Source: Owenia fusiformis
Taxonomy: Eukaryota; Annelida; Polychaeta; Sabellida; Oweniidae
Length of the DNA stretch: 64,000 nucleotides
Reading direction: 5' to 3'
Assembly: GCA_903813345.2 (NCBI GenBank)
Contig: CAIIXF020000113.1
Coordinates: 62,001-126,000 of the forward strand
The notes under the pieces were generated by a model that did not search any database, was not told where the DNA came from, and saw nothing but the letters and a program-made list of their open reading frames with translations. Positions 6,001 to 64,000 of the stretch are shown piece after piece. The stretch's first letter is position 1. Each line of letters begins with the position of its first letter. A program made the position numbers and the translations under genes.

Positions 6001-6420
6001 GTGGCTACAGAGGGTATAGAGGTGACCTTAGGGGAATGTATGTGCTTGCTACGGTAGCTACAATGGGTACGCTTCTACAGAGGGTCGGAAGGTAACCCTA
6101 GGAGCATGCATACAGTGGCTCCGCTAGCTACACTCGTTACGAGGCTACAGAGGGTATAGATGTAACCTTAGGAGAATGTATGCGGTAGATACCCTAGCAA
6201 CACTGGCTACGCGGCTACAGAGGGTCTGGAGGTAACCCTAGGAGCAGGCATGCGATGGCTACGCTTTCTAATCTGACTACGCTTCTACACAGGGTCTGGA
6301 TGTAGACCTAGGAGCATGCATTCAGTGGGTACGTTAGGTTTATTGGCTACGCGGCTACACAGGGTCTAGAAGTAGGCCTATGAGCATGCATTCAGGGGCT
6401 ACGCTAGCTACACTGGCTTT
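1..6420. repeat. Higher-order satellite block, copy 1 of an 8139-bp duplication
   Basis: This block is repeated nearly base for base at 8140-14559 (constant offset 8139). Anchors such as the junction CAACTTGGTAGGCTAC fall at 3214/11353 and 4955/13094, and a 61-codon minus-strand open frame at 2025 recurs at 10164. Only scattered single-base differences were seen, for example near 5690 (GGTAATC against GGTAACC) and 13723 (GAGGAAACC against GAGGTAACC). The window starts inside the block, so the true left end is unknown. Confidence 0.88.
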
Positions 6421-8139
6421 GTGACTACACAGGGTCTAAAAGTAAGCCTAGGATCATGCATTCAGTGGCTACACTGGCTTTGCGACAACTGGTGTATAGA
6501 GGTAACCAAATGAGCATACATGCTGAGGCTCCGATAGCTACACTCACTACACGGCTACAGAGGTTGTGGAGGTAAGCCTAGGAGCAGGCATTCAGTGGCT
6601 ACGTTAGCTACATTGTCTGCGCTGATACACAGGGTCGGTCTGTATGTAAGCCTAGGAGCATGCATACAGTGGCTCCGCTAGCTACACTGGGTACGCTACT
6701 ACAGAGTGTACAGAGGTAACCAAAGGAGTATGCATGCTGTGGCTACGCTAGCTACACTTGCAACGCGGCAACAGAGGGTATAGAGGTGACCTTAGGGGAT
6801 TGTATGCGGTAGCTACGCTAGCTACACTGGGTACGCTTCTACAGAGTGTCTGAAGGTAACCCTAGGAGCAGGGATGCGATGGCTACGCTAGCTACTCTGA
6901 CTACGCTGCTACACAGGATCTGGATGTAAGCCGAGGAGCATGTATTCAGTGGCAACGCTAGCTACACTGGGTAGGCTACTACAGAGTGATTATAGGTAAC
7001 CTAAGGAGCATACATGCGGTGGCTACGCTAGTTAGACTCGCTACGCAGCTACAGAGGTTCTTGAGGTAAGCCTAGTAGCATGCATTCAGTGGCAACGCTA
7101 GCTACACTGGGAAGGCTAATACAGAGTGAATAGAACCTCAGGAGCAGCTACGCGGCTGTAGAGGGTATAGAGGTAAGATTAGGAGAATGTATGCGTTAGC
7201 TACACTGGCTACGCGATTACAGAGGATATAGAGGTTACCTAAGGAGCATGCATGCGTTGGCTACGCTAGCTACACTTGCAACGCGGCTACAGAGGGTATA
7301 GAGGTGACCTTAGGGGAATGTATGCGGTAGCTACGCTAGCTACACTGGGTACGCTTCTACAGAGGGTCTGAAGGTAACCCTAGGAGCAGGCATGTGATGG
7401 CTACGCTAGCAACTCTGACTACGCTGCTACAAAGGGTCGGTCTGGATGTAAGCCTAGGAGCATTCATACATACGTAGGTTCTGGAAATTAGTCTAGGAGC
7501 AGGGATTCGGAGGCTACGTACGCTATCTAGACTGACTACGCTGACATTACAGGGTCGGAATGTAAGCCTAGGAGCATGCATTCAGTGGCAACGCTAGTTA
7601 CACTGGGTAGGCTACTACAGGAGGAGCAGCTACGCGGCCATAGAGGTAACCTTAGTAGAATGAATGCGTTAGCTACACTGGCTACGCTGCTACAGAGTGT
7701 ACAGAGGTAACCCAAGGAGCATACATGCTGTGGCTACGATAGTTACACTCACTACACAGCTACAGAGGATGTGGATGTAAGCCTAGGAGCAGGCATTCAG
7801 TGGCTACGTTAGCTACATTGGCTACTCGGCTACACAGGGTCTGGATGTAAGCCTAGGAACATGCATTCAGTAGCTCCGCTATCTACACTGGGTACGCTAC
7901 AACAGAGTGTGTAGAGGTAACCTAAGAGCAGCGCTATAGCTACGCGGCTATTGAGGTAACCTTAGTAGAATGAATGCGTTAGCTACACTGGCTACGCTGC
8001 TACAGAGTGTACAGAGGTAACCCAAGGAGAATACATGCCTAGGAGCAGGGATTCGGAGGCTACGTAAGCTATCTAGACTGACTACGCTGACATTACAGGG
8101 TCGGAATGTAAGCCCAGGAGCATGCATTCAGTGGCAACT

Positions 8140-11100
8140 TGGTAGGCTACTACAGAGTGAATAGAGGTAACCTAAGGAGCAGCTACGCGGCTATAGAGGG
8201 TATAGAGGTAACCATAGGAGAATGTATGCGTTAGCTACATTGGCTACGCGATTACAGACGATATAGAGATTACCTAAGGAGCATGCATGCGGTGGCTACA
8301 CTACCTACACTCGCTACGCGGATACATAGGTTCTGGAGATTAGCCTAGGAAAAGGGATTCGGAGGCTACGTACGCTATCTAGACTGACTACGCTGACATT
8401 ACATGGTCGGAATGTAAGCCTAGGAGCATGCATTCAGTGGCAACGCTATTTACACTGGGTAGGCTACTACAGGAGGAGCAGCTACGCGGCTATAGAGGTA
8501 ACCTTAGTAGAATGAATGCGTTAGCTACACTGGCTACGCTGCTACAGAGTGTACAGAGGTAACCCAAGGAGCATACATGCTGTTGCTACGATAGTTACAC
8601 TCACTACACAGCTACAGAGGATGTGGATGTAAGCCTAGGAGCAGGCATTCAGTGGCTATGTTAGCTACATTGGCTACTCGGCTACACAGGGTCTGGATGT
8701 AAGCCTAGGAACATGCATTCAGTAGCTCCGCTATCTACACTGGGTACGCTACAACAGAGTGTGTAGAGGTAACCAAACGAGTATGCATGCTGTGGCTACG
8801 CTAGCTACACTGGGTAGGCTACTACAGAGTGAATAGAGGTAACCTAAGGAGCAGCTACGCGGCTATAGAGGTAACCTTAGTAGAATGAATGCGTTAGCTA
8901 CACTGGCTACGCTGCTACAGAGTGTACAGAGGTAACACAAGGAGAATACATGCTGTGGTTACACTGTGGATAGTTACACTCACGACACAGCTACAGAGGT
9001 TGTGGAGGAGCCTAGGAGCAGGCATTCAGTGGCTACGTTAGCTACATTGGCTACGCAGCTACACAGGGTCTGGGTGTATGTTTAGGAGCATGCATTCAGT
9101 GGCCCCACTGGGTACGCTACTACAGAGTGTATAGAGGTAACCAAACGAGTATGCATGCTGTGGCTACGCTAGCTACACTCGCAACGTAGCTACAGAGGGT
9201 ATAGAGGTGACCTTAGGGGAATGTATGTGCTTGCTACGGTAGCTACAATGGGTACGCTTCTACAGAGGGTCGGAAGGTAACCCTAGGAGCATGCATACAG
9301 TGGCTCCGCTAGCTACACTCGTTACGAGGCTACAGAGGGTATAGATGTAACCTTAGGAGAATGTATGCGGTAGATACCCTAGCAACACTGGCTACGCGGC
9401 TACAGAGGGTCTGGAGGTAACCCTAGGAGCAGGCATGCGATGGCTACGCTTTCTAATCTGACTACGCTTCTACACAGGGTCTGGATGTAGACCTAGGAGC
9501 ATGCATTCAGTGGGTACGTTAGGTTTATTGGCTACGCGGCTACACAGGGTCTAGAAGTAGGCCTATGAGCATGCATTCAGGGGCTACGCTAGCTACACTG
9601 GCTTTGTGACTACACAGGGTCTAAAAGTAAGCCTAGGAGCATGCATTCAGTGGCTACACTGGCTTTGCGACAACTGGTGTATAGAGGTAACCAAATGAGC
9701 ATACATGCTGAGGCTCCGATAGCTACACTCACTACACGGCTACAGAGGTTGTGGAGGTAAGCCTAGGAGCAGGCATTCAGTGGCTACGTTAGCTACATTG
9801 TCTGCGCTGATACACAGGGTCGGTCTGTATGTAAGCCTAGGAGCATGCATACAGTGGCTCCGCTAGCTACACTGGGTACGCTACTACAGAGTGTACAGAG
9901 GTAACCAAAGGAGTATGCATGCTGTGGCTACGCTAGCTACACTCGCAACGCGGCTACAGAGGGTATAGAGGTGACCTTAGGGGAATGTATGCGGTAGCTA
10001 CGCTAGCTACACTGGGTACGCTTCTACAGAGGGTCGGAAGGTAACCCTAGGAGCAGGCATGAGATGACTACGATAGCAACTCTGACTACGCTGCTACACA
10101 GGGTCTGGATGCAAGCCTAGGAGCATGCATTCAGTGGCAACGCTACCTACACTGGGTAGGCTACTACAGAGTGATTATATGTAACCTAAGGAGCATGCAT
10201 GCGGTGGCTACACTAGCTACACTCGCTACGCGGCTACATACGTAGGTTCTGGAGATTAGTCTAGGAGCAGGGATTCGGAGGCTACGTACACTATCTAGAC
10301 TGACTACGCTGACATTACAGGGTCGGAATGTAAGCCTAGGAGCATGCATTCAGTGGCAACGCTAGCTACACTGGGTAGGCTACTACAGAGTGAATAGAGG
10401 TAACCTAAGTTGCAGTTACAGAGTGTACAGAGGTAACCAAAGGAGTATGCATGCTGTGGCTACGCTAGCTACACTTGCAACGCGGCAACAGAGGGTATAG
10501 AGGTGACCTTAGGGGATTGTATGCGGTAGCTACGCTAGCTACACTGGGTACGCTTCTACAGAGTGTCTGAAGGTAACCCTAGGAGCAGGGATGCGATGGC
10601 TACGCTAGCTACTCTGACTACGCTGCTACACAGGATCTGGATGTAAGCCGAGGAGCATGTATTCAGTGGCAACGCTAGCTTCACTGGGTAGGCTACTACA
10701 GAGTGATTATAGGTAGCCTAAGGAGCATGCATGCGGTGGCTACACTAGCTATACTAGCTAAGCGGCTACATAGGTTCTGGAGATTAGCCTAGGAGCAGTG
10801 ATTCGGAGGCTACGATATCTAGACTGACTACGCTGACATAACAGGGTCGGAATGTAAGCCTAGTAGCATGCATTCAGGAGCAGCTACGCGGCTATAGAGG
10901 GTATAGAGGTAAGATTAGGAGAATGTATGCGTTAGCTACACTGGCTACGCGATTACAGAGGATATAGAGGTTACCTAAGGAGCATGCATGCGGTGGCTAC
11001 ACTACCTACACTGGGTACGCTTCTACAGAGGGTCTGAAGGTAACCCTAGGAGCAGGCATGCGATGGATACGCTAGCTACTCTGACTACGCTGCTACACAA

Positions 11101-14100
11101 GGTCTTGATGTAAGCCTAGGAGCATGCATTCAGTGGCAACGCTAGCTACACTGGGTTACTAAAGAGTGATTATAGGTAACTTAAGGAGCATGCATGCGGT
11201 GGCTACACTACCTACACTCGCTATGCGGCTACATAGGTTCTGGAGATTAGCCTAGGAGCAGGGATTCGGAGGCTACGTACGCTATCTAGACTGACTACGC
11301 TGACATTACAGGGTCGGAATGTAAGCCCAGGAGCATGCATTCAGTGGCAACTTGGTAGGCTACTACAGAGTGAATAGAGGTAACCTAAGGAGCAGCTACG
11401 CGGCTACAGAGGGTATAGAGGTAACCATAGGAGAATGTATGCGTTAGCTACATTGGCTACGCGATTACAGATGATATAGAGGTTACCTAAGGAGCATGCA
11501 TGCGTTGGCTACACTACCTACATTCGTACCTTATCTAGACTGACTACGCTTACATTACAGGGTCGGAATGTAAGCCTAGGAGCATGCATTCAGTGGCAAC
11601 GCTAGCTACACTGGGTAGGCTACTACAGAGTGAATAGAGGTAACCTAAGGAGCAGCTACGCGGCTATAGAGGTAACCTTAGTAGAATGAATGCGTTAGCT
11701 ACACTGGCTACGCTGCTACAGAGTGTACAGAGGTAACCCAAGGAGAATACATGCCTAGGAGCAGGGATTCGGAGGCTATGTAAGCTATCTAGACTGACTA
11801 CGCTGACATTACATGGTCGGAATGTAAGCCTAGGAGCATGCATTCAGTGGCAACGCTATTTACACTGGGTAGGCTACTACAGGAGGAGCAGCTACGCGGC
11901 TATAGAGGTAACCTTAGTAGAATGAATGCGTTAGCTACACTGGCTACGCAGCTACAGAGTGTACAGAGGTAACCAAAGGAGCATACATGCTGTGGCTACG
12001 ATAGTTACACTCACTACACAGCTACAGAGGATGTGGATGTAAGCCTAGGAGCAGGCATTCAGTGGCTACGTTAGCTACATTGTCTGCGCTGATACACAGG
12101 GTCGGTCTGTTTGTAAGCCTAGGAGCATGCATTCAGTGGCTCCGCTAGCTACACTGGGTACGCTACTACAGAGGTAACCAAAGGAGTATGCATGCTGTGG
12201 CTACGCTAGATACACTCGCAACGCGGCTACAGAGGGTATAGAGGTGACCTTAGGGGATTGTATGCGGTAGCTACGCTAGCTACACTGGGTACGCTTCTAC
12301 AGAGTGTCTGAAGGTAACCCCAGGAGCAGGGATTCGATGGCTACGCTAGCTACTCTGACTACGCTGCTACACAGGGTCTGGATGTAAGCCGAGGAGCATG
12401 CATTCAGTGGCAACGTTAGCTACACTGGGTAGGCTACTACAGAGTGATTATAGGTAACCTAAGGAGCATGCATGCGGTGGCTACACTAGCTATACTAGCT
12501 AAGCGGCTACATAGGTTCTGGAGATTAGCCTAGGAGCAGTGATTCGGAGGCTACGATATCTAGACTGACTACGCTGACATAACAGGGTCGGAATGTAAGC
12601 CTAGTAGCATGCATTCAGGAGCAGCTACGCGGCTATAGAGGGTATAGAGGTAAGATTAGGAGAATGAATGCGTTAGCTACACTGGCTACGCGATTACAGA
12701 GGATATAGAGGTTACCTAAGGAGCATGCATGCGGTGGCTACACTACTTACACTGGGTACGCTTCTACAGAGGGTCTGAAGGTAACCCTAGGAGCAGGCAT
12801 GCGATGGATACGCTAGCTACTCTGACTACGCTGCTACACAAGGTCTTGATGTAAGCCTAGGAGCATGCATTCAGTGGCAACGCTAGCTACACTGGGTTAC
12901 TAAACAGTGATTATAGGTAACTTAAGGAGCATGCATGCGGTGGCTACACTACTTACACTCGCTACGCGGCTACATAGGTTCTGGAGATTAGCCTAGGAGC
13001 AGGGATTCGGAGGCTACGTACGCTATCTAGACTGACTACGCTGACATTACAGGGTCGGAATGTAACCCCAGGAGCATGCATTCAGTGGCAACTTGGTAGG
13101 CTACTACAGAGTGAATAGAGGTAACCTAAGGAGCAGCTACGCGGCTATAGAGGGTATAGAGGTAACCATAGGAGAATGTATGCGTTAGCTACATTGGCTA
13201 CGCGATTACAGACGATATAGAGATTACCTAAGGAGCATGCATGCGGTGGCTACACTACCTACACTCGCTACGCGGATACATAGGTTCTGGAGATTAGCCT
13301 AGGAAAAGGGATTCGGAGGCTACGTACGCTATCTAGACTGACTACGCTGACATTACATGGTCGGAATGTAAGCCTAGGAGCATGCATTCAGTGGCAACGC
13401 TATTTACACTGGGTAGGCTACTACAGGAGGAGCAGCTACGCGGCTATAGAGGTAACCTTAGTAGAATGAATGCGTTAGCTACACTGGCTACGCTGCTACA
13501 GAGTGTACAGAGGTAACCCAAGGAGCATACATGCTGTTGCTACGATAGTTACACTCACTACACAGCTACAGAGGATGTGGATGTAAGCCTAGGAGCAGGC
13601 ATTCAGTGGCTATGTTAGCTACATTGGCTACTCGGCTACACAGGGTCTGGATGTAAGCCTAGGAACATGCATTCAGTAGCTCCGCTATCTACACTGGGTA
13701 CGCTACAACAGAGTGTGTAGAGGAAACCAAACGAGTATGCATGCTGTGGCTACGCTAGCTACACTGGGTAGGCTACTACAGAGTGAATAGAGGTAACCTA
13801 AGGAGCAGCTACGCGGCTATAGAGGTAACCTTAGTAGAATGAATGCGTTAGCTACACTGGCTACGCTGCTACAGAGTGTACAGAGGTAACACAAGGAGAA
13901 TACATGCTGTGGTTACACTGTGGATAGTTACACTCACGACACAGCTACAGAGGTTGTGGAGGAGCCTAGGAGCAGGCATTCAGTGGCTACGTTAGCTACA
14001 TTGGCTACGCAGCTACACAGGGTCTGGGTGTATGTTTAGGAGCATGCATTCAGTGGCCCCACTGGGTACGCTACTACAGAGTGTATAGAGGTAACCAAAC

Positions 14101-51800: not shown

Positions 51801-53254
51801 ACGCTTCTACAGAGGGTCGGAAGGTAACCCTAGGAGCAGGCATGAGATGACTACGATAGCAACTCTGACTACGCTGCTACACAGGGTCTGGATGCAAGCC
51901 TAGGAGCATGCATTCAGTGGCAACGCTACCTACACTGGGTAGGCTACTACAGAGTGATTATATGTAACCTAAGGAGCATGCATGCGGTGGCTACACTAGC
52001 TACACTCGCTACGCGGCTACATACGTAGGTTCTGGAGATTAGTCTAGGAGCAGGGATTCGGAGGCTACGTACACTATCTAGACTGACTACGCTGACATTA
52101 CAGGGTCGGAATGTAAGCCTAGGAGCATGCATTCAGTGGCAACGCTAGCTACACTGGGTAGGCTACTACAGAGTGAATAGAGGTAACCTAAGTTGCAGTT
52201 ACAGAGTGTACAGAGGTAACCAAAGGAGTATGCATGCTCTGGCTACGCTAGCTACACTTGCAACGCGGCAACAGAGGGTATAGAGGTGACCTTAGGGGAT
52301 TGTATGCGGTAGCTACGCTAGCTACACTGGGTACGCTTCTACAGAGTGTCTGAAGGTAACCCTAGGAGCAGGGATGCGATGGCTACGCTAGCTACTCTGA
52401 CTACGCTGCTACACAGGATCTGGATGTAAGCCGAGGAGCATGTATTCAGTGGCAACGCTAGCTACACTGGGTAGGCTACTACAGAGTGATTATAGGTAAC
52501 CTAAGGAGCATGCATGCGGTGGCTACGCTAGTTAGACTCGCTACGCGGCTACAGAGGTTCTTGAGGTAAGCCTAGTAGCATGCATTCAGTGGCAACGCTA
52601 GCTACTAACCTAAGGAGCAGCTACGCGGCTATAGAGGGTATAGAGGTAACCATAGGAGAATGTATGCGTTAGCTACATTGGCTACGCGATTACAGACGAT
52701 ATAGAGATTACCTAAGGAGCATGCATGCGGTGGCTACACTACCTACACTCGCTACGCGGATACATAGGTTCTGGAGATTATCCTAGGAAAAGGGATTCGG
52801 AGGCTACGTACGCTATCTAGACTGACTACGCTGACATTACATGGTCGGAATGTAAGCCTAGGAGCATGCATTCAGTGGCAACGCTATTTACACTGGGTAG
52901 GCTACTACAGGAGGAGCAGCTACGCGGCTATAGAGGTAACCTTAGTAGAATGAATGCGTTAGCTACACTGGCTACGCTGCTACAGAGTGTACAGAGGTAA
53001 CCCAAGGAGCATACATGCTGTTGCTACGATAGTTACACTCACTACACAGCTACAGAGGATGTGGATGTAAGCCTAGGAGCAGGCATTCAGTGGCTATGTT
53101 AGCTAAATTGGCTACTCGGCTACACAGGGTCTGGATGTAAGCCTAGGAACATGCATTCAGTAGCTCCGCTATCTACACTGGGTACGCTACAACAGAGTGT
53201 GTAGAGGTAACCAAACGAGTATGCATGCTGTGGCTACGCTAGCTACACTGGGTA
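48872..53254. repeat. Higher-order block, copy 2 of the 11660-bp-offset duplication (interrupted by the element)
   Basis: Collinear with 37212-41594 and carrying the same junction (52601). Differences are scattered single bases, for example TTCAGAGG at about 49091 against TTCGGAGG at about 37431. The copy is cut at 53254 by the 9520-bp insertion and continues at 62775. Confidence 0.87.
53251..53254. other. Target-site duplication GGTA, left copy
   Basis: The uninterrupted satellite reads CACTGGGTAGGCTAC. On the left of the element it reads CACTGGGTA followed by the terminal repeat, and on the right it resumes with GGTAGGCTAC. GGTA is therefore present twice at the occupied site and once at empty sites such as 41591-41594. 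Confidence 0.85.
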
Positions 53255-53269
53255 CAGCAGGAGATCCAA
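53255..53269 (+). repeat. Left terminal inverted repeat (15 bp)
   Basis: CAGCAGGAGATCCAA is the exact reverse complement of 62760-62774. The match stops at the 16th base (A against G). Beyond it there is only weak, gapped similarity (an ATTGT...TCGG stretch on both sides), so a longer degenerate inverted repeat is possible but not clear. Confidence 0.88.
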
Positions 53270-54140
53270 AGGGCAAATTGTGCTTCGGTTAGCGACATTT
53301 CTATCTCCGCCGTGGCGTGATATAGTCCCGATTTCTCGGTACACGAGTTCGTAGAAAAATACGACACCTCAAGTCAAGAGGCCATAACTCAACCCATAAA
53401 TTATCAATTTTGATTCTGTTTGAATTTTTAGGATGCCATATATGAGAGTTGTGATATGTAAAGCCATCGTTATGTTTCATAAGGGATAAAATAGTGTATT
53501 TGGTGTAGGCCCGACTTGAATATTTTTGGAAGATTTTTCCAAAAAAAAAATTTTTCCGCTAAAAAGTTGGCAGAAATTTGTCTTCAGGGTTTTCAGCACT
53601 AACCCTCAGGTGTTCTCGATTATTTTGGATATCTCTGATCTTTTTGTCAGCTTAACTTTTTTAACCTACCTGTAGTTCATGGAGAAAATGATATCGAAAG
53701 TGCACTCTCATTTTCACCCTAAATCGTATTTTTGGCGAGTCATGACCTCATGACGTAAATTCCGGTTTTGAACTTTTTAGGTGGAAGTTTTCAAATTTCT
53801 GTCGAATATGCCCGAATATGACGACAGTAACAATAAATTGGACCCTAAGGTATTGCTGTCTGGTGTATAAAGTATAAGGGAACAAACAGATAACATTGAA
53901 GTAAGTATATAACAGGTGCTATCGATGAAAGTGAAGGAACAAGTCGTAAAAGTTCACTAAAATTATTCCAAGATCGAAGATGGCTTCCAATTTTCTAAGT
54001 TGAATTTTGAATGACCAGTTTTGCCATTCCAATCTGAATTATTGTGCTTTTAGGGTATAACTAGATGGTCGATATTACACTGGGATATTACCCTTATTCT
54101 TGATCAACTTAAGACTTTTATGAATCCCGATCTAGACCAA
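53270..54140. other. Left internal region of the element, no gene seen
   Basis: AT-rich sequence with poly-A/T tracts (for example an A10 run at 53541-53550). No open frame of note and no RNA gene was seen. It contains the 34-bp subterminal motif described separately (53563-53596) and two nearby TCATGAC motifs around 53740. Confidence 0.6.
53563..53596 (+). repeat. 34-bp subterminal motif shared with the right-end tandem repeat
   Basis: Matches 62339-62372 with one mismatch in 34 and 61911-61944 with two, in direct orientation; the core is AGTTGGCAGAAATTTGTCTT. It lies about 0.3 kb from the left end, while the right-end copies lie about 0.4 and 0.85 kb from the right end. Shared subterminal motifs are common in DNA transposons, but these are direct rather than inverted, so a transposase-binding role is only a guess. 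Confidence 0.8.
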
Positions 54141-54188
54141 GGGCCAAGCAGAGACATGAAAAACTGTTTTTCATGTCTCTGGGCCAAG
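54141..54188. repeat. Perfect 15-bp hairpin between 8-bp direct repeats
   Basis: Positions 54150-54164 and 54166-54180 are exact reverse complements with a single T between them (AGAGACATGAAAAAC and its complement). The hairpin is flanked by GGGCCAAG at 54141-54148 and again at 54181-54188. The arrangement resembles a tiny palindromic insertion with an 8-bp target duplication, or a templated repair scar. No gene context suggests a transcription terminator. Confidence 0.75.
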
Positions 54189-54683
54189 GCATTATTACGG
54201 TCTACAACTTGTGGACTGCGATAACTAAGGCTCACCAAGTTTTCTTTCTTTGACTTCATCAGGATGATTAAGCCTAGTTGAACTAAGATTGCTGTCATGT
54301 CTGCATTTCACAGTTCAAAATCAACTTGTGTAGTAATTTGACACCGACTTCTAATTTGCCTTATTGACTTATCATTTCTCAAACATATTTCCAAAAATCA
54401 GGAAATAAGGGTGACGAGCGGGGAAATTTTATTGGGAATTTCATTGTGAAAAACTACCGAGTGACAATTTAAACCACAGATCCGGAGCCTTCAAGTGTAG
54501 GGTGACATGACATTTCTTTCTCTGTATTGTCTTTATTATTTTGATCAACTGAAATTGTTATTGTTTATTGGGCATATTTTTCTCATTTTGATGCAAGAAA
54601 AGCTCCTGGTAATACTGCTAATACTTATATCTGGCCAGCTTTAGAGAGAGCCAGTTTAATTTAGCTACACTTAATCTTTCAAT

Positions 54684-54990
54684 ATAATTTCAATGGTTGG
54701 TGTGAAACTTTTTCATGTAGTGACATTTATAAAAGCAAGTTGATCTGTGGAATTCATTTTCATATTTTGATCTAGCATCATTGATAAAATATATCCAGAT
54801 CTTCTTAAGCCTTTACTAGCAGCTTTCTCATAATTTTAACAGTTGGTGTGAAACTTTTTCATGTTATGAACTGAGTTGAACTCTGGCCAAAAAGCCTTGC
54901 TTTTGATGATCTGTGGAATTCATTTTCAAATTTTCATATTTTGATCAAGCATCGCTGTAGAAAAATCTCTCAAGCCTTTACTATCAAAAG
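54684..54990 (+). repeat. Imperfect tandem duplication, ~150-bp unit
   Basis: Copy 1 is about 54684-54829 and copy 2 about 54830-54985. Both contain, in the same order, GTTGGTGTGAAACTTTTTCA, GATCTGTGGAATTCATTTTC, TTTTGATC.AGCATC and AAGCCTTTACTA. They differ by substitutions and small insertions (copy 2 has extra sequence around 54865-54895). No coding potential. Confidence 0.8.
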
Positions 54991-55432
54991 GTCCAAAATT
55001 AGCAGACATAAGCAAAAATATTGGAAATGTTTCTCAAATATTCAAATATCCAACCATTTTTCAATAAAAGGTGAAATTTTTTAATCATCAAATAGTCCAC
55101 TTCACCGTTTACAGTGCAAAACACTTTATCTTTGCACCATTGCATTTAATGCATTGTCTTATTAATGTTAGGTATAGGCAATATTTATAGCCTTTTCAGT
55201 CAATTTCACTTTTGAGAAGGGTATTTTTTATATTCTATGGGGAAAATGAACTGAAAATGTCATTAGCCAGAGAGCACAACTGCATTGGCCAAATAGGATG
55301 GTAAGTTAGCATTTGAATGAATCTAAATTTCAATATTAGATGCTTTTTTACAGATGCAAAAGGACTATTTCCATGCATAACATATCCAAGAACTGACTGT
55401 ATACTAAATGCTCTTCACACTTTGATTTTCAG
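54991..55432. other. AT-rich stretch upstream of the pseudogene exons, no gene seen
   Basis: No open frame, RNA gene or repeat was recognised. If the ATP synthase alpha copy once extended further 5', its earlier exons should lie here or to the left, but no sequence coding for that part of the protein could be recognised. It ends in a plausible splice acceptor (TTTGATTTTCAG, ending at 55432). Confidence 0.5.
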
Positions 55433-55557
55433 GCAGGCAAAGAGTGGGTACTAAAGCTCTGGGTGTTATATGAACATGAAGTGAAAGAACCCATGCAGAT
55501 TGCTTGAGTAGAAATGATCTATAGTTACTCAGTTCCTCAAGAAACTCAAAGATGCAG
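55433..55557 (+). pseudogene. ATP5F1A: ATP synthase alpha pseudo-exon a (about human residues 169-208)
   Basis: After TTTTCAG, the reading GRQRVGTKALGVI matches the family's RRRVGLKAPGII. Two stops and a frameshift follow. In the next frame KEPMQIA matches REPMQTG, and then MIYSYSVP...TQR parallels AVDSLVP...GQR with a one-residue insertion. A GT (GCAG|GTTTGT) follows at 55558. This segment normally precedes the P-loop. Its order relative to the other exons supports the assignment. Confidence 0.75.
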
Positions 55558-55771
55558 GTTTGTTTCCTTGTTCATTTAAATTAGTTGAAGTCATGATAAT
55601 ATTAGCTCACGTGGGTTCAAATGATCAAAAACCTGAATGTTTGATATTGCTAAAAGCATTTTTGTTACTAAAATTAGGCTGTTGGCAGTCAGAGACTTCA
55701 AGATGTTACACTTTTGTACACACATTGATTTTATGTCACTACCTACTAAAATGGTAAGATATTTAAGGAAT

Positions 55772-55933
55772 AAAGACCAAGATTTTATAATTTATGGCGT
55801 AATATATGACCGAAAATTTTATTCTGCTCATTGTTAAAAGACCGAAATTGCGAAGCGATTGAGGTCTTTGGCAATGGCCAGAATAAAATTTGAGGTCATA
55901 TATTTGACATATATCATAAAATCGAGGTCTTTG
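55772..55933. repeat. Fold-back (MITE-like) inverted repeat, ~160 bp, inside a pseudogene intron
   Basis: The left arm (about 55772-55846) and right arm (about 55861-55933) are imperfect reverse complements over about 70 bp. Shared blocks include AAAGACC, GATTTTAT, ATATATGACC, AATTTTATTCTG and CATTG.(T/C)AAAAGACC-like ends. The centre is AAATTGCGAAGCGATT. It lies between pseudo-exons a and b and was presumably inserted in the intron. No coding capacity. Confidence 0.78.
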
Positions 55934-56268
55934 TTACGATTCTAATATGATAAACAGACAAGAAACACAACTATTTGCATTTATGAATTTTAGCAGTGAT
56001 GCATACTCCAACATCCAGTTGTCAGCAATTAGCATTCAGCATCTAGAACAAATTCTTAGAACTTGAAAAAATTTAACTAATAGTGTTTAGATTAGATGTA
56101 GCATCCAGGTGGCTACATTTTGTCATTTTAATGCTTTGTTAGAGATTGCTTCAAAAATATTTATTGTTGCCTTGATGATATTGGAGTAATAGGTATTGAA
56201 ACAACCATAAACCTGCCTGTCATCTATGTACTAATTTTCTCTAACAACTTGTTTAAATATTTCTTTAG

Positions 56269-56393
56269 ATGCCATAAAGTACATCATCATTGTTGTATCT
56301 GGCACGGCTTTCTGATGCTGCTCCTCTCTAATACCTGACTTCTTACTCTGGCTGTGACATCATGTGAGAATACTTCAGAGATAAGCAAAACAG
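56269..56393 (+). pseudogene. ATP5F1A: ATP synthase alpha pseudo-exon b (about human residues 267-305)
   Basis: This is the clearest segment. After TTTCTTTAG the frame reads DAIKYIIIVVSGTA, matching the family's DAMKYTIVVSATA. One extra T then shifts the frame, which continues SDAAPL-stop-YLTSYSGCDIM-stop-EYFRD against [23 protein letters not shown]. Q and G codons have become TAA and TGA. It ends at CAG|GTGAGA, a good donor. The match covers the conserved nucleotide-domain stretch after the P-loop. Confidence 0.88.
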
Positions 56394-57257
56394 GTGAGAA
56401 AGTCGTATTACGTGGGTACTGTAGATACACTTAAAGGGGCAACAAGGACTGTAGAGAGAAACTTCGAAATTTTTTATTTTTTTCTGAGCTATCAGGTCAA
56501 TATTTAGCTTTATATCTTCTTTGACATATCTATTTTCTTGAAATGTATGGATAAACTATCAATTTCAGCATTAAGCAGTATAAATTCAGTTCAAAGCTTC
56601 TATAAAGGGTGTCCCAATTCATGGATTTTAAGATTCACAACGTTTCAAGAGGAATATCAGCTGAGCTAATGTTCATCCAGGGGGTTTCTTAGGAGATAAT
56701 AAAAAATAATTTTAGTCTTGATGAAATATACAAACTTAAATATATTTTGACACTGGTCAATGATCATTTAATGCCCCCTATGCACTAATTGTTGCACCTT
56801 TAATTTGGCTACTGTTTAATTTGACGGATTGAAAAGGTCTGCCAAACAAAAATCCACCAATTTTCAGGTTTATTTTGGAAAATCTCCAAATCTCTGAAAG
56901 ATTTCATTTGTGTAAGCCTTTCTATTTGGATTTCATTGCTATACCAAGACTTACTGTATGCTATACACCTGAGTTTGAAATGCTGATTTCCAGATCAATG
57001 ATAAAACTTAAAACTCAGTTCTTAATCTCAGTTCTTAAGTGTGATAATTAACTGTATCTACAGTATGTTTCATGAATTAAGTTGAGTGTTCATTTTCAAA
57101 TTATAAATATGCAGGTCAAGGTACATTCTGATATACATGTTCATGATATACTGTACTCCCACTAATATTTGACACAATTATATTTTGCTTTATTGCATCC
57201 TGATGCAAAGACTAGTTATAATCTACACTAATTTACACATTTTTTGGGTATTTCCAG

Positions 57258-57374
57258 AGCTCCATTCACATATCCAGATTCCTAAGATCAATGACTTCTA
57301 TAGTAGATCCCTCCATCAATGTGGGTCCCTGAAGTCTGTATCATGTGTAGGATCAGATTTAAGCCATGAAATAG
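57258..57374 (+). pseudogene. ATP5F1A: ATP synthase alpha pseudo-exon c (about human residues 384-428)
   Basis: After TATTTCCAG, the DNA aligns with the region coding [20 protein letters not shown] (AGCTCCATT..., CAGATT, TTCTATA). It continues into RPAINVG (ATCAATGTGGGT) and ends with GCCATGAAATAG, where the family has AMKQ, so CAG has become TAG. GTAGGT follows as a donor. Several small deletions and stops are present. A 93-codon open frame crosses part of this segment in a different register and is not the ancestral frame throughout. Confidence 0.78.
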
Positions 57375-57862
57375 GTAGGTTCAAGAAGACAGCTGATATT
57401 AAAATGGCCATTATTTTTTACAAGAAAACATGTTTTTTGAAAATTGAAATACCAGTAAACTGGTAAAAGGTCGGTTTAAGGAGAAATTTTTAAGACGACC
57501 ACTATTTATCAAAAAAAATTACTTCACTGTGATTTGCTTCTTGTTGAGTTAATGTTTTCTTAACTTAAGGTCAAGGTCAACATTTGAAATGGTATATGAT
57601 TATTTTACATATTAAGGACACATACTAGTAGTTTTGATAAAAGATTGGTCTGACAGAGTGGTCAAAAATATTATATTAATTGGCCTACTTCATGTTTTGC
57701 ACATGCTCTTATTTCACATTGCACATGTGTGTTATAAATATTTACCAGAGTTTCTCACGTTTAGGCCCATGGGCGTTTATCTGAAAAAGGTGTATGAAAA
57801 CGTTTTTTCCCTCTTTGTGAAACCCCATGGGCATTCATTTAAGATACTTCAAAAACTCACAG

Positions 57863-57945
57863 TGGGCGAAAACATTGAGAAAAGGACTAAAATTGAAGTG
57901 GCAAACAGAGCAGAGAATAGAGGTGAATTTGACAACTCATTTGTC
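57863..57945 (+). pseudogene. ATP5F1A: ATP synthase alpha pseudo-exon d (about human residues 429-458)
   Basis: After AACTCACAG the frame includes KIEVANRAENRGEFDNS, aligned to the family's YREVAAFAQFGSDLDAA (E, V, A, A and D at matching spacing, GAAGTGGCA identical in sense). The upstream GENIEKRT part is only loosely similar to AGTMKLELAQ. The segment lies inside a 113-codon open frame (57634-57975), which is mostly intron read-through. The match is weaker than exons b, c and e, but its position between c and e fits. Confidence 0.6.
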
Positions 57946-57988
57946 ACACATTTCCTTCAAATTTTATGTTTATGATATATCTTTGCAG

Positions 57989-58105
57989 TCCCCATGGCAG
58001 GAGCAGGTAGCCATCATATTCTCTGGAGTTGAAGATAAGCTGACGAAGTTGACATCTGGCAAAATTGCAGATACAAAAGAAGGAAAGCTACAGAATGTGT
58101 TCTAA
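57989..58105 (+). pseudogene. ATP5F1A: ATP synthase alpha pseudo-exon e (about human residues 476-505, then an early stop)
   Basis: After ATATCTTTGCAG the frame reads SPWQEQVAIIFSGV, matching SPMAIEEQVAVIYAGV of the alpha subunit C-terminal domain, with a short deletion (CCATGGC...GAGCAGGTAGCC). DKLTKL and GKI then parallel LDKL and SKI. The frame ends at TAA 58103-58105, about 50 residues before the normal C-terminus. The exon is 117 bp in phase 0. Confidence 0.83.
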
Positions 58106-59353
58106 AATTCCCTCCATGGATTCAAAACCTGAATATAGTTCATTCTATAATGAACATGAACTAAGTGAATTAGTTCCAAATGACACTGCCAGTCTTCCTG
58201 ATTCGTTTCAATGAAAAATTTAAATAGACAGTGGATAATATGTGCAGTAGTATGATCTTCCGGAGTAGCTCAACAAATTACAATGATTTGTGTTATGTTA
58301 TGCAGTAAATCTTGGCCCATCAAGAATTGGGAGATTGAGGTATCTCTTGGAGCTGTCTGCTATACTACACTGCTGTGATACTGTACTACATACACAACAC
58401 TGTCTAATAGCATAATTGTTAGTTTGAACCTTTGAGCCATGGAATAAGCTTCTGATAAGAATGTCTAAATCATTATTTGTCATTGAGAGAACATAGAATA
58501 GAATCTTTACATTTGAGAAATATTACCATACACATGTTTACGGAGTATTCATTCATAGATATTTCAGAATCGGGGGGGGGGGAGAGGGATTAACCTCAGA
58601 GTTCAAAGATGACTACATTTATAATGTAAACATGTATTGAGATGACGTACAGTTGGTACACCTCTGATTGGTCCAAATCGATAAACAAAAATGGCGGATT
58701 CAAATTTTCTAATAACATCATAGCTTGGATTTTCACATCAAGATAAAGAAAAGTGTAATGAATATGCTTACATCCATTAAAACATCACGACGACGTGTAA
58801 TATTAGAAAACTAACTCATGAGAAGGATGTGTCTGGATATATGCCCTTTTGGTCCCTCAGTCAAATGTATGTGAAATATGGTTTTTATTACTGTCCTAGT
58901 TATATTTGATAAGTATATTTACTTTTTCACGAGTTTTGATGCAAAATTAACCCCCTGCTGAGATCAGAATAAGTATCTGAACAAATAAAGAGGGTCATTA
59001 TCATAGAAAAAACACCAATGGCAACATGTATGACATACAAAGGAGAAATAACTTAAGACCCATGAAGAATTAAAAAGAAAATCATATTTTTGAAATGTAT
59101 TTTAGGATTAAAATTTTTTTCAAATTTTTGAATTTCCTGCCAGTTTAATTTGAAGGGGGAAAAACAAGATGGCTGCCATTTGATGTAAGAAATATCAGAA
59201 AAAAAGTTGCTTCACTTTTAGTTTTGCACAATGAGCACAGTTTTCCGGTTTAGGTTTTTTTGACTGATTCTGAATCTTCATCACCAGGGTCATGTATAGA
59301 GATTATAATATTGAAACCAAAATGTTGTGCTCAGCATGAATTTGACTGAAATA
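58106..59353. other. AT-rich stretch downstream of the pseudogene, no gene seen
   Basis: No supported gene. It contains an 11-G run (58572-58582) and short YY1-like motifs: AAATGGCGG at about 58689-58697 near an ATTGG box, and AAGATGGCTGCC at 59166-59177. The remaining C-terminal codons of ATP synthase alpha were looked for and not found. Confidence 0.5.
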
Positions 59354-59356
59354 TGT

Positions 59357-59567
59357 GTAAAGGACGATTCTCGGTTTGGAGAACGAAGTTCATCAATCTA
59401 AATGAGCATTATCCCTGCTCCGGACAAATTTGATTTTTTTTACATAATATAGATTTAAATGTCCTCTATTGAATAGTCATAATTTAATTTGGGTAATATT
59501 TCTAGATTTTTCGCAAAAAAATAATTAGCCCAAGAGACTGTTCTCCAAACCGAGAATCGTCCTTCAC
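59357..59567. repeat. Fold-back (MITE-like) inverted repeat with perfect 25-bp arms, ~210 bp
   Basis: 59360-59384 and 59540-59564 are exact reverse complements over 25 bp (beginning AAGGACGATTCTCGGTTTGG on the left arm). Similarity extends a few bases outward with one mismatch. The 155-bp loop is AT-rich and non-coding. This is the expected layout of a MITE or a recently made inverted duplication. No clear target duplication was seen. Confidence 0.82.
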
Positions 59568-59570
59568 TAA

Positions 59571-60410
59571 CACAATTGAAGTCTCAAAACTGGATGCTCA
59601 GTAACTTTGAGTGACTATAATCCCTTGATTACCCAGATAAACACCAATTCACTTATCCAGAAATACCATTCAATGTCTATACAAAGAAAGTACGCAATAT
59701 TTTGGAGGATATGTTTCAAAGTTTTTGTATAAATAATTCATTTAATATTTGCCATTGATTTGTCTTTGATGCCAATATTCTTCATCAATTGTGATACAAA
59801 TTGATATTTTTGTAATCTCAGAATAGAAGGATAAGATATTGAAGTTTAATAATATGTGTGATTGAGTTGGTTTTTCAGACATTACAATTTTCAATATTTT
59901 CTAAGTCGATACCCAGACTCATGGTAGGTGGTAGGCAGGAGACTAATATATCAGTCATCGCTAAAGCTCTGGGGGTCCACCCCTCTTTTTCAGAATTGAT
60001 CTCCACAAAAGACATATTACTGAGTATTTGTTCCATAGCCTAGCATATTATGAATGAATATTATTTGGTACTATATAACTGCACTTTATCTTAATTTTTA
60101 GAATTAAAACCATGTCAGCATGCTGGCATGTCAGCGTCATGATTTTATGATTACTAGTATTGATGAAATGAAATAAATGAATAATTGCATTCAACGGTCA
60201 GCCTATATTGTTGAGAAATTATTTACTATGTATAATTTTTTCCACAATATTTCCTAAAATAAGTTCATTTTCCGTGTGAAACTCCTGTGCACAGATCTAT
60301 GGGCAGTATACCAGTATACGGGTATAGCAATGGGGGAAAAGAGTCTTGTTAGGTGGAACAGGGAAGGTTCGTGAAAACGTCAGGAAAACACGGAAGGGTA
60401 GGGGAGTTTT
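59571..60410. other. AT-rich stretch, no supported gene
   Basis: A 61-codon + frame at 59858-60043 contains AKALGV, reminiscent of pseudo-exon a, but the match is too short to use. Minor self-complementary words (CAGCATGCTG at about 60117-60126; a GTATAC repeat at about 60307-60318) are present. Nothing else recognised. Confidence 0.5.
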
Positions 60411-60660
60411 GTAGGGTAAAGGACCGTGAGTTGTTTGTAGAATGATACACTTTAAAACATTTAATTGACTTTAAGATTGCACCATATAATCCCCAAAAAT
60501 ATCTCATTTTCTAGTATTATCTATGGATTAACACCCAAGTATTGTTACATAGTGTTTAAAAGTGTATTGATGTTTTTTAGATGAAAAACACAAGTGGAAT
60601 GCATGAACAAGCTCCCTAGATTCATTCTACAAACAACTCGCGGTCCTTTAAATACCCACG
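60411..60660. repeat. Fold-back (MITE-like) inverted repeat, 28-bp arms, ~240 bp
   Basis: 60418-60445 and 60622-60649 are reverse complements with one mismatch in 28 (left arm begins AAAGGACCGTGAGTTGTTTG). Looser similarity extends outward (GTAGGGTA against the complement of TACCCAC). The loop is 176 bp of AT-rich, non-coding sequence. Confidence 0.82.
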
Positions 60661-61559
60661 AAATAAATGTGCTTTTTCGGCAGTATGTATTGTATTCGAA
60701 TATTTCGTTAACTTCACTTCCTTTCAATTATTAAATAAATAAAGTCGATGTACTATTGATTTTCCTAAGGGCAAGGAAGATTGCCTCCCAGAGTGCAATA
60801 TCCATATTCTGTCTCATATATGGGAATGTGCTTCAAAATTCGAATTCCAACAGCCGCCATTTGTTCACTTCAACATTTGGATCGTGAATTTTGGTCTTAT
60901 TTCCTATCGAAACATTCCAAAAATGAAATTCTCGGAGTCAACCCTCCTTGCACCAACTAGTTGCACGTCGACGTTGTGCAAACTGCTACAAATTATAAAA
61001 GGTGCAATATGCGGTCAGCGTCACTGATCCATACGCTAAGCGGCTGACAGACTGAGGATGCACAATTTACAAATTATGGCTATTAGGTGAGTGGCTCCTC
61101 GGAACATAATGCTGAAACCAGTACAATGTTTTTTAAAACCAATCTGTGTCTGAGATAGTGTTTTCGAAAATTTATATCTGCATAGCCTGATAGCGGTTTT
61201 ATTGGATGATTTTTAATAGCGTGTTGACTTAGGGGCGTCGGCAGAATTGTTGAATTGAAGCCGGGCATAGAAGGCATTCACAGCTCATCCGAGACTAAAC
61301 AGGGGTCATTATGCTATGAATGAATATGTATACATGAGCTGATCATTTTCGAATAAAACATGCCTTCGAAATAATGCGCTTAATTCGGATATTTATTCAT
61401 CGTCGTGATATCCGGTGTCCGGTCTTGATATAAAATCGATTTAAATACAGAGCGAGCAATGATTGCACATTTATACAATGAATTCCCTCATTCGACAAAT
61501 CGAGAAATAGAGACGGCCGCCGACCTCACAACGTAAAATTAAAAGCCGGGTATTTTGAC
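60661..61559. other. AT-rich stretch, no supported gene
   Basis: Short open frames on the minus strand (61083-61277 and 61471-61722) show no family resemblance and no codon signal I can support. A YY1-like motif (CAGCCGCCATTT) lies at 60851-60862, and a partial palindrome (TTGCAC...GTGCAA) at 60961-60981. Confidence 0.5.
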
Positions 61560-62660
61560 TTTCATTGTTCAAAGTTGGAAAAGAATTCTTACTGATGTCC
61601 AACCATGCTTCAATTAATGCGCTAAAACGAGTCACATTTACGCATTTGGCGTGAAGAACGGTAACACGTAACCTGGTTTTATTGGCTGCATTCCATCGGA
61701 TCATATGTAATAAGTCCATCAATGTGATGTGCTTGTGATACTCTTTTATGTTGTATTAGATTCATACTGAATCATTAATGCATATTGATCGAGATATGGC
61801 CATGAACAAATACATACGCGTATCAAATCTAATCTTGGTTTTAAAATCGAGAAATACGACGTCGTCATTGGTTTGCGGTAAAAACCATGATTTTTCACTC
61901 GTCGTTACAGAAAGTTGGCAGAAATTTGTCTTCAGAGGTTTCAGAAAAAAACAATCGTACCATTGGAGAGAGCTCATTGTGGGCTAAATGTAGAGCGAAA
62001 AACATTTTTTAACTCAACGAGATTTAATGGCCCAATTAACGCGCGAATGTGATACACATTTGTGCATTTTCAGTGAATTTCTGTGAAAAAATGTTTTACA
62101 CGTTTGTACCCGTAGCTGGGTGGTATTTAATCGGGTCGAAATAACTTATCCATATGCGCATTGCCCTTGTAATAAGCTTTCATAACTATAAAAATGATCA
62201 TTCAATGACGAATATTGACCGAGATATGACCGTGAACAAATATCATACGCGTATCAAATCTAATCTTGGTATAAAAATCGAGAAACACGACGTCATTGGT
62301 TTGCGGGAAAAAACATGATTTTTCACTCGTCGTTACAGAAAGTTGGCAGAAATTTGTCTTCAGGGGTTTCAGAAAAAAACAACTATACCATTGGAAAGAG
62401 CTCGATGTGGGCTAAATGATGAGTGAAAAACATTTTTTAACCCGACTTGTTTTAATAGCCTATTTAACTCGCGAAAATGATACACATTTCTGCATTTTTA
62501 ATGAAAAATATGTCAAAACTTTAGCACCCGTAACTGGTTGGTATTTTATCTGACCAAAATAATAAATTCACATACGTAATGCCCTGGTTATAAGCTTTCA
62601 TTAATTATCAAATTTATAATATAATGATAAATATTGACTGAGATATGATCGATTAGAAAT
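61560..62660 (+). repeat. Right-end subterminal tandem repeat, ~430-bp unit
   Basis: Copies start at TATTGA.CGAGATATG: 61783-62212 (430 bp), 62213-62631 (419 bp) and a truncated third from 62632 that runs toward the right terminal repeat. A more diverged partial copy precedes them from about 61560 (ACACGTAACCTGG, CACATTTACGCATTT). Shared blocks include CATACGCGTATCAAATCTAA, GATTTTTCACTCGTCGTTAC and the 34-bp motif also found near the left end. The overlapping 69- and 71-codon open frames are broken in the second copy by small indels, so they are not treated as genes. Confidence 0.85.
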
Positions 62661-62759
62661 GCATGTATACACCATGACGTTCAAAAGCGTGAAATTTAAA
62701 TGGACTGATCACCGTAGATTACTACGCGATTTTGCCGAAAGAACAATGGAAATGACGTC

Positions 62760-62774
62760 TTGGATCTCCTGCTG
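62760..62774 (-). repeat. Right terminal inverted repeat (15 bp)
   Basis: TTGGATCTCCTGCTG is the perfect reverse complement of the left end. It is followed directly by the satellite target duplication. Confidence 0.88.
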
Positions 62775-62778
62775 GGTA
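62775..62778. other. Target-site duplication GGTA, right copy
   Basis: Right-hand copy of the 4-bp duplication, directly after the right terminal inverted repeat. Removing 53255-62778 restores the satellite sequence exactly as seen at 41591 and about 49544. Confidence 0.85.
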
Positions 62779-64000
62779 GGCTACTACAGAGTGAATAGAG
62801 GTAACCTAAGGAGCAGCTACGCGGCTATAGAGGTAACCTTAGTAGAATGAATGCGTTAGCTACACTGGCTACGCTGCTACAGAGTGTACAGAGGTAACAC
62901 AAGGAGAATACATGCTGTGGTTACACTGTGGATAGTTACACTCACGACACAGCTACAGAGGTTGTGGAGGAGCCTAGGAGCAGGCATTCAGTGGCTACGT
63001 TAGCTACATTGGCTACGCAGCTACACAGGGTCTGGGTGTATGTTTAGGAGCATGCATTCAGTGGCCCCACTGGGTACGCTACTACAGAGTGTATAGAGGT
63101 AACCAAACGAGTATGCATGCTGTGGCTACGCTAGCTACACTCGCAACGTGGCTACAGAGGGTATAGAGGTGACCTTAGGGGAATGTATGTGCTTGCTACG
63201 GTAGCTACAATGGGTACGCTTCTACAGAGGGTCGGAAGGTAACCCTAGGAGCATGCATACAGTGGCTCCGCTAGCTACACTCGTTACGAGGCTACAGAGG
63301 GTATAGATGTAACCTTAGGAGAATGTATGCGGTAGATACCCTAGCAACACTGGTTACGCGGCTACAGAGGGTCTGGAGGTAACCCTAGGAGCAGGCATGC
63401 GATGGCTACGCTTTCTAATCTGACTACGCTTCTACACAGGGTCTGGATGTAGACCTAGGAGCATGCATTCAGTGGGTACGTTAGGTTTATTGGCTACGCG
63501 GCTACACAGGGTCTAGAAGTAGGCCTATGAGCATGCATTCAGGGGCTACGCTAGCTACACTGGCTTTGTGACTACACAGGGTCTAAAAGTAAGCCTAGGA
63601 GCATGCATTCAGTGGCTACACTGGCTTTGCGACAACTGGTGTATAGAGGTAACCAAATGAGCATACATGCTGAGGCTCCGATAGCTACACTCACTACACG
63701 GCTACAGAGGTTGTGGAGGTAAGCCTAGGAGCAGGCATTCAGTGGCTACGTTAGCTACATTGTCTGCGCTGATACACAGGGTCGGTCTGTATGTAAGCCT
63801 AGGAGCATGCATACAGTGGCTCCGCTAGCTACACTGGGTACGCTACTACAGAGTGTACAGAGGTAACCAAAGGAGTATGCATGCTGTGGCTACGCTAGCT
63901 ACACTCGCAACGCGGCTACAGAGGGTATAGAGGTGACCTTAGGGGAATGTATGCGGTAGCTACGCTAGCTACACTGGGTACGCTTCTACAGAGGGTCGGA
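62775..64000. repeat. Satellite array, ~70-bp monomer (right part, truncated by the window)
   Basis: Satellite resumes immediately after the right terminal repeat of the insertion, in exact register with the interrupted copy. Positions 62775 onward match 41591 onward at a constant offset of 21184, including the diagnostic variant CTGGTTACGCGG at about 63352 (also at about 42168). The left-hand copy (48872-53254) matches 37212-41594 at offset 11660. The difference between the offsets, 9524, equals the 9520-bp insertion plus a 4-bp duplication. The array runs off the end of the window. Confidence 0.97.

Follow-up and report, generated by a model that had tools for sequence, protein, structure and literature searches.

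An old ATP5F1A gene fragment in a multicopy DNA transposon of Owenia fusiformis: a probable genomic capture

In a stretch of 64,000 nucleotides from the annelid Owenia fusiformis (contig C113:62001-126000 of a 498-Mb genome; the window hereafter), a satellite array is interrupted once, by 9520 bp in which remains of the ATP synthase alpha gene ATP5F1A can be recognised. How did part of a host gene come to lie there? An initial annotation had described a broken ATP synthase alpha gene, introns included, inside a mobile element, and collinear blastn matches, intron edges and frame-shifting indels all bear this description out. The explanation we favour, with a probability of about 0.93, is that the interruption belongs to the Pack-TIR kind of DNA transposon (TIR, terminal inverted repeat) and that its cargo is a genomic piece of the ATP5F1A gene of its own host, acquired in one capture, decaying neutrally and moved in trans. 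The borders of the element, in window positions, are as follows.

53255..62774, plus strand: whole DNA transposon of 9520 bp, defined by exact inverted ends, an empty site and 15 other two-ended copies with the same cargo
53255..53269, plus strand: left terminal inverted repeat CAGCAGGAGATCCAA, an exact 15-bp inverted end
62760..62774, minus strand: right terminal inverted repeat, an exact 15-bp inverted end
53251..53254, no strand: left target-site duplication (TSD), GGTA, from the joined-flank match in the array
62775..62778, no strand: right TSD, GGTA, from the joined-flank match in the array

The host site is an array with a 70-bp unit and higher-order periods. Both flanks joined by a single GGTA, that is, the empty site, gave 31 exact matches in the satellite array and 13 more with two mismatches, compared with 0 matches in 100 shuffles of the joined flanks. 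The uninterrupted sequence, with one GGTA, exists in the array; the window element went in cleanly and duplicated 4 bp of its target.

The intact host gene was located with the atpA profile TIGR00962, which gave ten matches. Eight are exons of one gene on contig C10, the sole place with more than one match; the remaining two are single, one on C7 and one (E 7e-4) on an element copy on C11. The C10 protein, assembled from splice sites, has 506 open codons, the first coding exon or exons not being included, and ATP5F1A exons are numbered here over the eight exons found. The protein is mitochondrial ATP synthase alpha, as its match to the bovine one (E 9e-291) shows. As a parental copy the C10 gene sits outside the element and has no flanking element ends; among the matches within host positions 17483441-17492384, none had homology to the element ends.

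Window positions 55400-58400 were compared with this locus by blastn at a cut-off of E<=1e-4. Eight plus-strand matches were obtained, six of them collinear, with 66-84% identity and E values from 1.5e-9 to 6.7e-29; there were zero minus-strand matches at the same cut-off. When letters were mixed inside 60-base blocks, 0 of 200 shuffles reached 1e-4 and 11 of 200 reached 1e-2. The six stretches (55428-55502, 55510-55564, 56233-56389, 57308-57387, 57926-58065 and 58058-58279) make 55428-58279 collinear with host ATP5F1A; the match starts within exon 3 and runs to about 200 bp beyond the stop codon, intron edges and 3' untranslated region (UTR) included. The parts of the fragment are listed below.

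55428..55502, plus strand: exon 3 remnant, beginning within the exon at the left capture junction (host 17486222-17486298)
55510..55564, plus strand: end of exon 4, splice donor and first intron bases, the P-loop part being deleted ahead of it (host 17486779-17486833)
56233..56393, plus strand: intron end and exon 5 remnant, the exon at 56269-56393 (E 6.7e-29; 56233-56389 matches host 17487218-17487365)
57258..57387, plus strand: exon 6 remnant and donor, significant in 57308-57387 only (host 17488153-17488235)
57926..58105, plus strand: intron end and remnant of exon 8, the last coding exon (host 17490598-17490742 and 17490819 onward)
58106..58279, plus strand: 3' UTR remnant, the right end of the capture (ends at about host 17491038-17491091)

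Exon 7 had no match in the window copy in this comparison. The P-loop codons (host 17486358) fall in the gap between host 17486298 and 17486779, so the P-loop part is missing, as had been proposed. Pseudo-exons had also been placed at 56269-56393, 57258-57374 and 57989-58105; judged by eye, all three borders agree with host splice sites, and for exon 6 significance is confined to the shorter stretch given above. Two further candidates, 56784-57027 and 56048-56151 (both plus strand), matched the host locus out of order, the first in an intron and the second upstream, and were dropped because the matched host pieces belong to dispersed repeats (among the best 40 of 589 and best 40 of 4639 candidates scored, respectively). 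Another out-of-order match, host upstream piece 17484303-17484393 in copies of subfamilies A and B (see below), was set aside; among the matches listed, one related stretch lies elsewhere, on C6.

Exon and intron edges thus agree between the window copy and the functional locus, in keeping with the earlier proposal of a capture of genomic sequence and not a retrocopy. In a more distant carrier on C11, of subfamily C, one unbroken stretch that contains introns aligns with host 17487315-17488779 at 61% identity. The piece might still have entered via RNA, by retrocopying of an unspliced pre-mRNA into the element, and the capture does stop about 200 bp past the stop codon, near a possible transcript end. 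Against this, the fragment starts inside exon 3, it keeps its introns, and there is no poly(A) tract at the right junction in three aligned copies (C113, C6 and C11); we consider an RNA route very unlikely. The coding frames are broken: of 13 coding indels in the window copy 10 are frame-shifting, as are 17 of the 19 found in the C11 copy, so these two carriers presumably do not make this part of ATP5F1A.

To what extent is the fragment a property of the element? Three pieces of the insert were used as queries in copy searches, with 40 candidates scored per search. At least 22 loci carry the ATP5F1A fragment, a lower bound because of that number of scored candidates: 15 in subfamily A (block by block, about 93-100% similar to the window copy), 5 in subfamily B (about 82-95%) and 2 in subfamily C, on C11 and C3 (about 71-86% over alignable parts). 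Both 15-bp ends are present in 16 of the 22 loci, with one exact end lacking in 6. The 16 two-ended copies have flanks of their own, and their TSDs are exact, 4 bp long in 14 and 5 bp in 2. The suggested check, whether other copies of the element carry the same fragment, thus came out in favour, with the same ends at different sites and TSDs. Shared ends do not count as an independent observation, since cargo loci were found partly by searching for those ends. Genome-wide, the 15-bp end pattern has 88 exact matches against 0 for a reversed control; by our own count these include 28 inverted pairs, namely the 16 cargo carriers, nine elements of a second lineage (family D) and three miniatures of 60, 132 and 472 bp. 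The 472-bp miniature, at C4:30730898-30731369, has both ends and a TSD of ATTT.

These copies bear on a simpler account, in which the fragment is an ordinary ATP5F1A genomic pseudogene and an unrelated element landed beside or around it, through segmental duplication or nesting, with no capture at all. The fragment is indeed old and decayed, and two A loci on C8 (37.51 and 37.60 Mb) have a common left flank, probably reflecting a segmental duplication. Copies that share the cargo but are bordered by TSDs at different sites refute the account: the same element holds the fragment at 22 loci or more, 16 of them two-ended with their own flanks and TSDs, and we leave this account practically no chance. 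Movement is also apparent among the youngest copies. The window copy and a copy on C2 are 99.885% identical over 9524 columns (7 mismatches, 2 gap openings) with different flanks and TSDs; identity of 99.9% at different sites indicates recent movement, and subfamily A appears to be still moving or to have moved very recently. Between the two C copies, identity is 99.5% and 99.7% across their two long shared parts.

The junctions show how often the piece was taken up. In the aligned A, B and C copies (C113, C6, C11 and C3) the sequences that precede the fragment on its left are homologous to one another, and the left junction to ATP5F1A lies within exon 3 at the same host base to about 2 bp. 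The P-loop region is missing in both A and C, and the C gap (host 17486317-17486741) is nested in the larger A gap. From the common left junction and the common P-loop loss we infer one capture, ancestral to all three subfamilies. Independent captures by A/B and by C could account for the different exon subsets in A and C (the C11 copy retains exon 7, absent from the window copy), but they would need both the junction and the nested P-loop loss to arise twice, next to homologous left-hand sequence; this is highly unlikely.

How old is the fragment? In a decaying copy, differences accumulate equally at all codon positions, whereas in a selected gene they fall mostly at the third. In matches at E<=1e-6, with repeat matches left out, the window copy differs from the host gene by 0.18, 0.13 and 0.24 at first, second and third codon positions (non-coding 0.26); for the B copy on C6 the values are 0.18, 0.14 and 0.25 (non-coding 0.24), and for the C11 copy 0.17, 0.13 and 0.25 (non-coding 0.33). 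Such a pattern results when a neutral branch and a selected branch are summed, and the host-element divergence fits neutral decay in the element. By our own reading of the codon pattern, the element branch would account for about 0.13-0.15 changes per site, a figure that carries no date. The fragment is old, and the window copy inherited it from earlier copies. A large divergence (24-25% at third positions, 22-33% in non-coding sequence) might instead reflect horizontal transfer of the element with a fragment of another species' ATP5F1A, a closely related donor species being possible. Yet introns and 3' UTR are still alignable with those of the host, and the codon pattern fits two branches, one neutral and one selected, whose shared ancestor lived in or close to this lineage. 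We regard transfer as quite improbable.

Capture and neutral decay in the host's own lineage would then have proceeded as follows. About 4.9 kb of ATP5F1A, starting within exon 3 and extending beyond the stop codon, would have been copied between the element ends, once, in a common ancestor, probably by template switching in repair or replication, and from then on the captured piece would have decayed neutrally. No stop-to-stop frame in the window is longer than 119 aa, and four A/B copies read whole, the window copy among them, showed no transposase homology. The A/B copies, being without transposase where examined, would move on an enzyme supplied in trans, most likely from transposase-coding relatives: the C member on C11 and the second lineage on C5.

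The C11 carrier (C11:14702082-14717651; 15,570 bp; TSD TATT) has the same ends as the window copy and holds the ATP5F1A fragment at element positions 11022-13030. A PF00306 match in the C carrier (E 0.0022) is under the curated cut-off. A first impression that its transposase was dead was rejected, as one frame of 2641 aa at element positions 1181-9103 is open without a stop. This member holds both the cargo and an intact transposase-like frame, and so the carriers are not only non-autonomous. It is conceivable that in the transposase-coding lineage the cargo serves the element, through small RNAs that cross-match host mRNA or by providing a module for 3'-end formation or splicing downstream of the transposase; we judge this improbable. 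The longest exact match between cargo and host mRNA is 25 nt in the C carrier and 19 nt in the window copy.

The homologue on C5, in family D, is a 2552-aa frame that appears shortened near the C-terminus. The two proteins are 66% identical over 1839 aligned columns, and the ratio of nonsynonymous to synonymous divergence (dN/dS, own Nei-Gojobori script) is about 0.10, with dS near saturation. Searched in pieces, the C5 protein matched DUF6589 at E 1.4e-12, above the cut-off, and a GDSL-like domain at its start at E 3e-5, below the cut-off. DUF6589 is a Pfam family of unknown function. Among the best 30 of 82 candidates, a 1566-aa query had near-full-length matches of at least 68% at C11, at the C3 carrier and at C5, with the next-best relatives at 38-49%. 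Distant transposase-like relatives at C1:55.25 Mb and C11:19.95 Mb have an OTU protease with DUF6589, a cysteine-rich tail and long open frames.

Family D comprises nine complete elements, eight of them with a TSD (4 bp in 6, 5 bp in 2). Leaving aside the transposase-like region of the C5 element, it has little in common with the A carrier beyond terminal stretches of about 84 bp and 134 bp. ATP5F1A exon sequence was found by blastn in 0 of 5 family-D elements, and three of four further elements had no match; the fourth (C12q) had three short matches, two in a dispersed repeat of intron 2 and one beyond the gene. Nor did tblastn of the host protein against the nine elements give a match at 1e-2, or Pfam searches of six frames of one family-D element anything at 0.01. 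The family-D element at C1:19975229-19990243, which has no 4- or 5-bp TSD, is split by an insertion whose open frames are 515 and 1252 aa long; by eye, the latter resembles the protein of a non-LTR (long terminal repeat) retrotransposon.

In the transposase-like protein a motif resembles XPG/FEN1 by eye; no search made it significant. Pfam found no nuclease domain in the C5 protein pieces, and 5_3_exonuc_N was matched in a relative at E 0.68. Profile searches of the Protein Data Bank (PDB) gave no match for query A1 and two S100-A5 rows (E 0.022 and 0.11) for A2; for A3, DnaK (E 0.005) came ahead of the best nuclease, exonuclease 1 (E 0.63), and Mdm4 was matched too.

Several results weigh against capture followed by neutral decay and trans movement as we present it. 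The protein-level signal is weak: tblastn of the host protein, the translated search suggested at the outset, recovered one exon of the window copy at E 2.7e-4 (0 of 200 shuffled proteins matched any of 15 elements at 1e-2), and a Pfam search of the window element, covering its three plus-strand frames, found nothing at E<=0.5. Evidence for the fragment is thus mainly at the DNA level, where its identity of 66-84% is low. A close relative of the element that had not captured the gene was not found, and the capture step itself was not seen. On the enzyme side, the C5 protein as one 2287-aa stretch had no Pfam match at 0.1, AlphaFold gave no usable model of the nuclease-like and DUF6589 regions (pLDDT, the predicted local distance difference test score, of 30), and the C3 carrier is 5'-truncated.

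Other repeats accompany the element in the window. The satellite array occupies 1-53250 and 62779-64000; beside its 70-bp base unit it has periods of 61, 140, 210, 236 and 467 bp, and kilobase-long blocks are repeated, as in the arrays from 756 and from 8895. Nested in a captured intron is one further feature, resembling a miniature inverted-repeat transposable element (MITE).

56431..56803, no strand: short dispersed MITE-like repeat with at least 13 other loci at 86-90%

Within the element, 58823-59922 is a two-block dispersed repeat whose blocks adjoin each other at 10 or more other loci; here they are separated by a 211-bp palindromic insert at 59357-59567. A palindromic MITE-like unit at 60417-60650 has 29-bp arms that are 97% complementary.

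Where does the element belong among known systems? For AcademX a TSD of 3-4 bp is reported (PMC10045372), similar to the 4 bp, sometimes 5, seen here, from which the 5-bp TSDs (2 of 16 cargo copies, 2 of 9 in family D) depart. As in Academ and AcademX, the protein is large, and part of it may be nuclease-like. In contrast, the single frame of 2641 aa is very large, and curated bivalve Academ elements average 5565 bp (PMC10294476), compared with 15.6 kb here. As no search made the XPG-like motif significant and the AlphaFold models stood at pLDDT 30, Academ-like affinity is a lead only, with placement unproven.

That TIR elements capture genes in animals was already known. The initial annotation called such capture less documented in animals than in plants; it is better documented than that implies, as a survey of 100 animal genomes reports 370 Pack-TIRs, all young, the majority from hAT or TcMariner and four of them multicopy, the frog multicopy example being 291 bp in three places (PMC8277862). 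The present element resembles those cases in having host sequence between TIRs, a parental copy elsewhere, TSDs and copies multiplied by transposition (PMC8277862). It differs in its source of about 4.9 kb, its presence at 22 or more loci in three subfamilies, the age of the capture and a full transposase-like open reading frame in one carrier. The survey's filters, which also screened out intron-less copies of multi-exon genes, favour young Pack-TIRs, so that old ones would be missed there (PMC8277862).

Plant Pack-MULE and Pack-TYPE elements likewise hold gene fragments between TIRs and move by an enzyme in trans; they belong to the MULE, CACTA, hAT, PIF and Mariner superfamilies and are described as non-autonomous (PMC8903248). 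Here, by contrast, the element is animal, the protein is of DUF6589 type and one carrier codes for it; the lack of a transposase that marks Pack-TYPE elements describes the window copy but not the C11 carrier. Turmoil-1 of C. elegans is another DNA element of an animal that acquired protein-coding sequence from its host, but its coding fragments lie in the inverted terminal repeats (PMC2572040), whereas the present cargo is an internal multi-exon genomic stretch. In a literature search outside which most subscription papers fell, no multicopy DUF6589-type family of such size and age, with cargo also in a full-frame member, was found. What is new here is a large, old, multicopy capture family with cargo in a transposase-coding member. 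A large multi-exon capture persisted in a living element lineage until that lineage had split into three subfamilies, and the family ties gene capture to the little-studied DUF6589-type transposases. With the parent gene, several generations of carriers and empty sites in one genome, capture, decay and spread become directly comparable.

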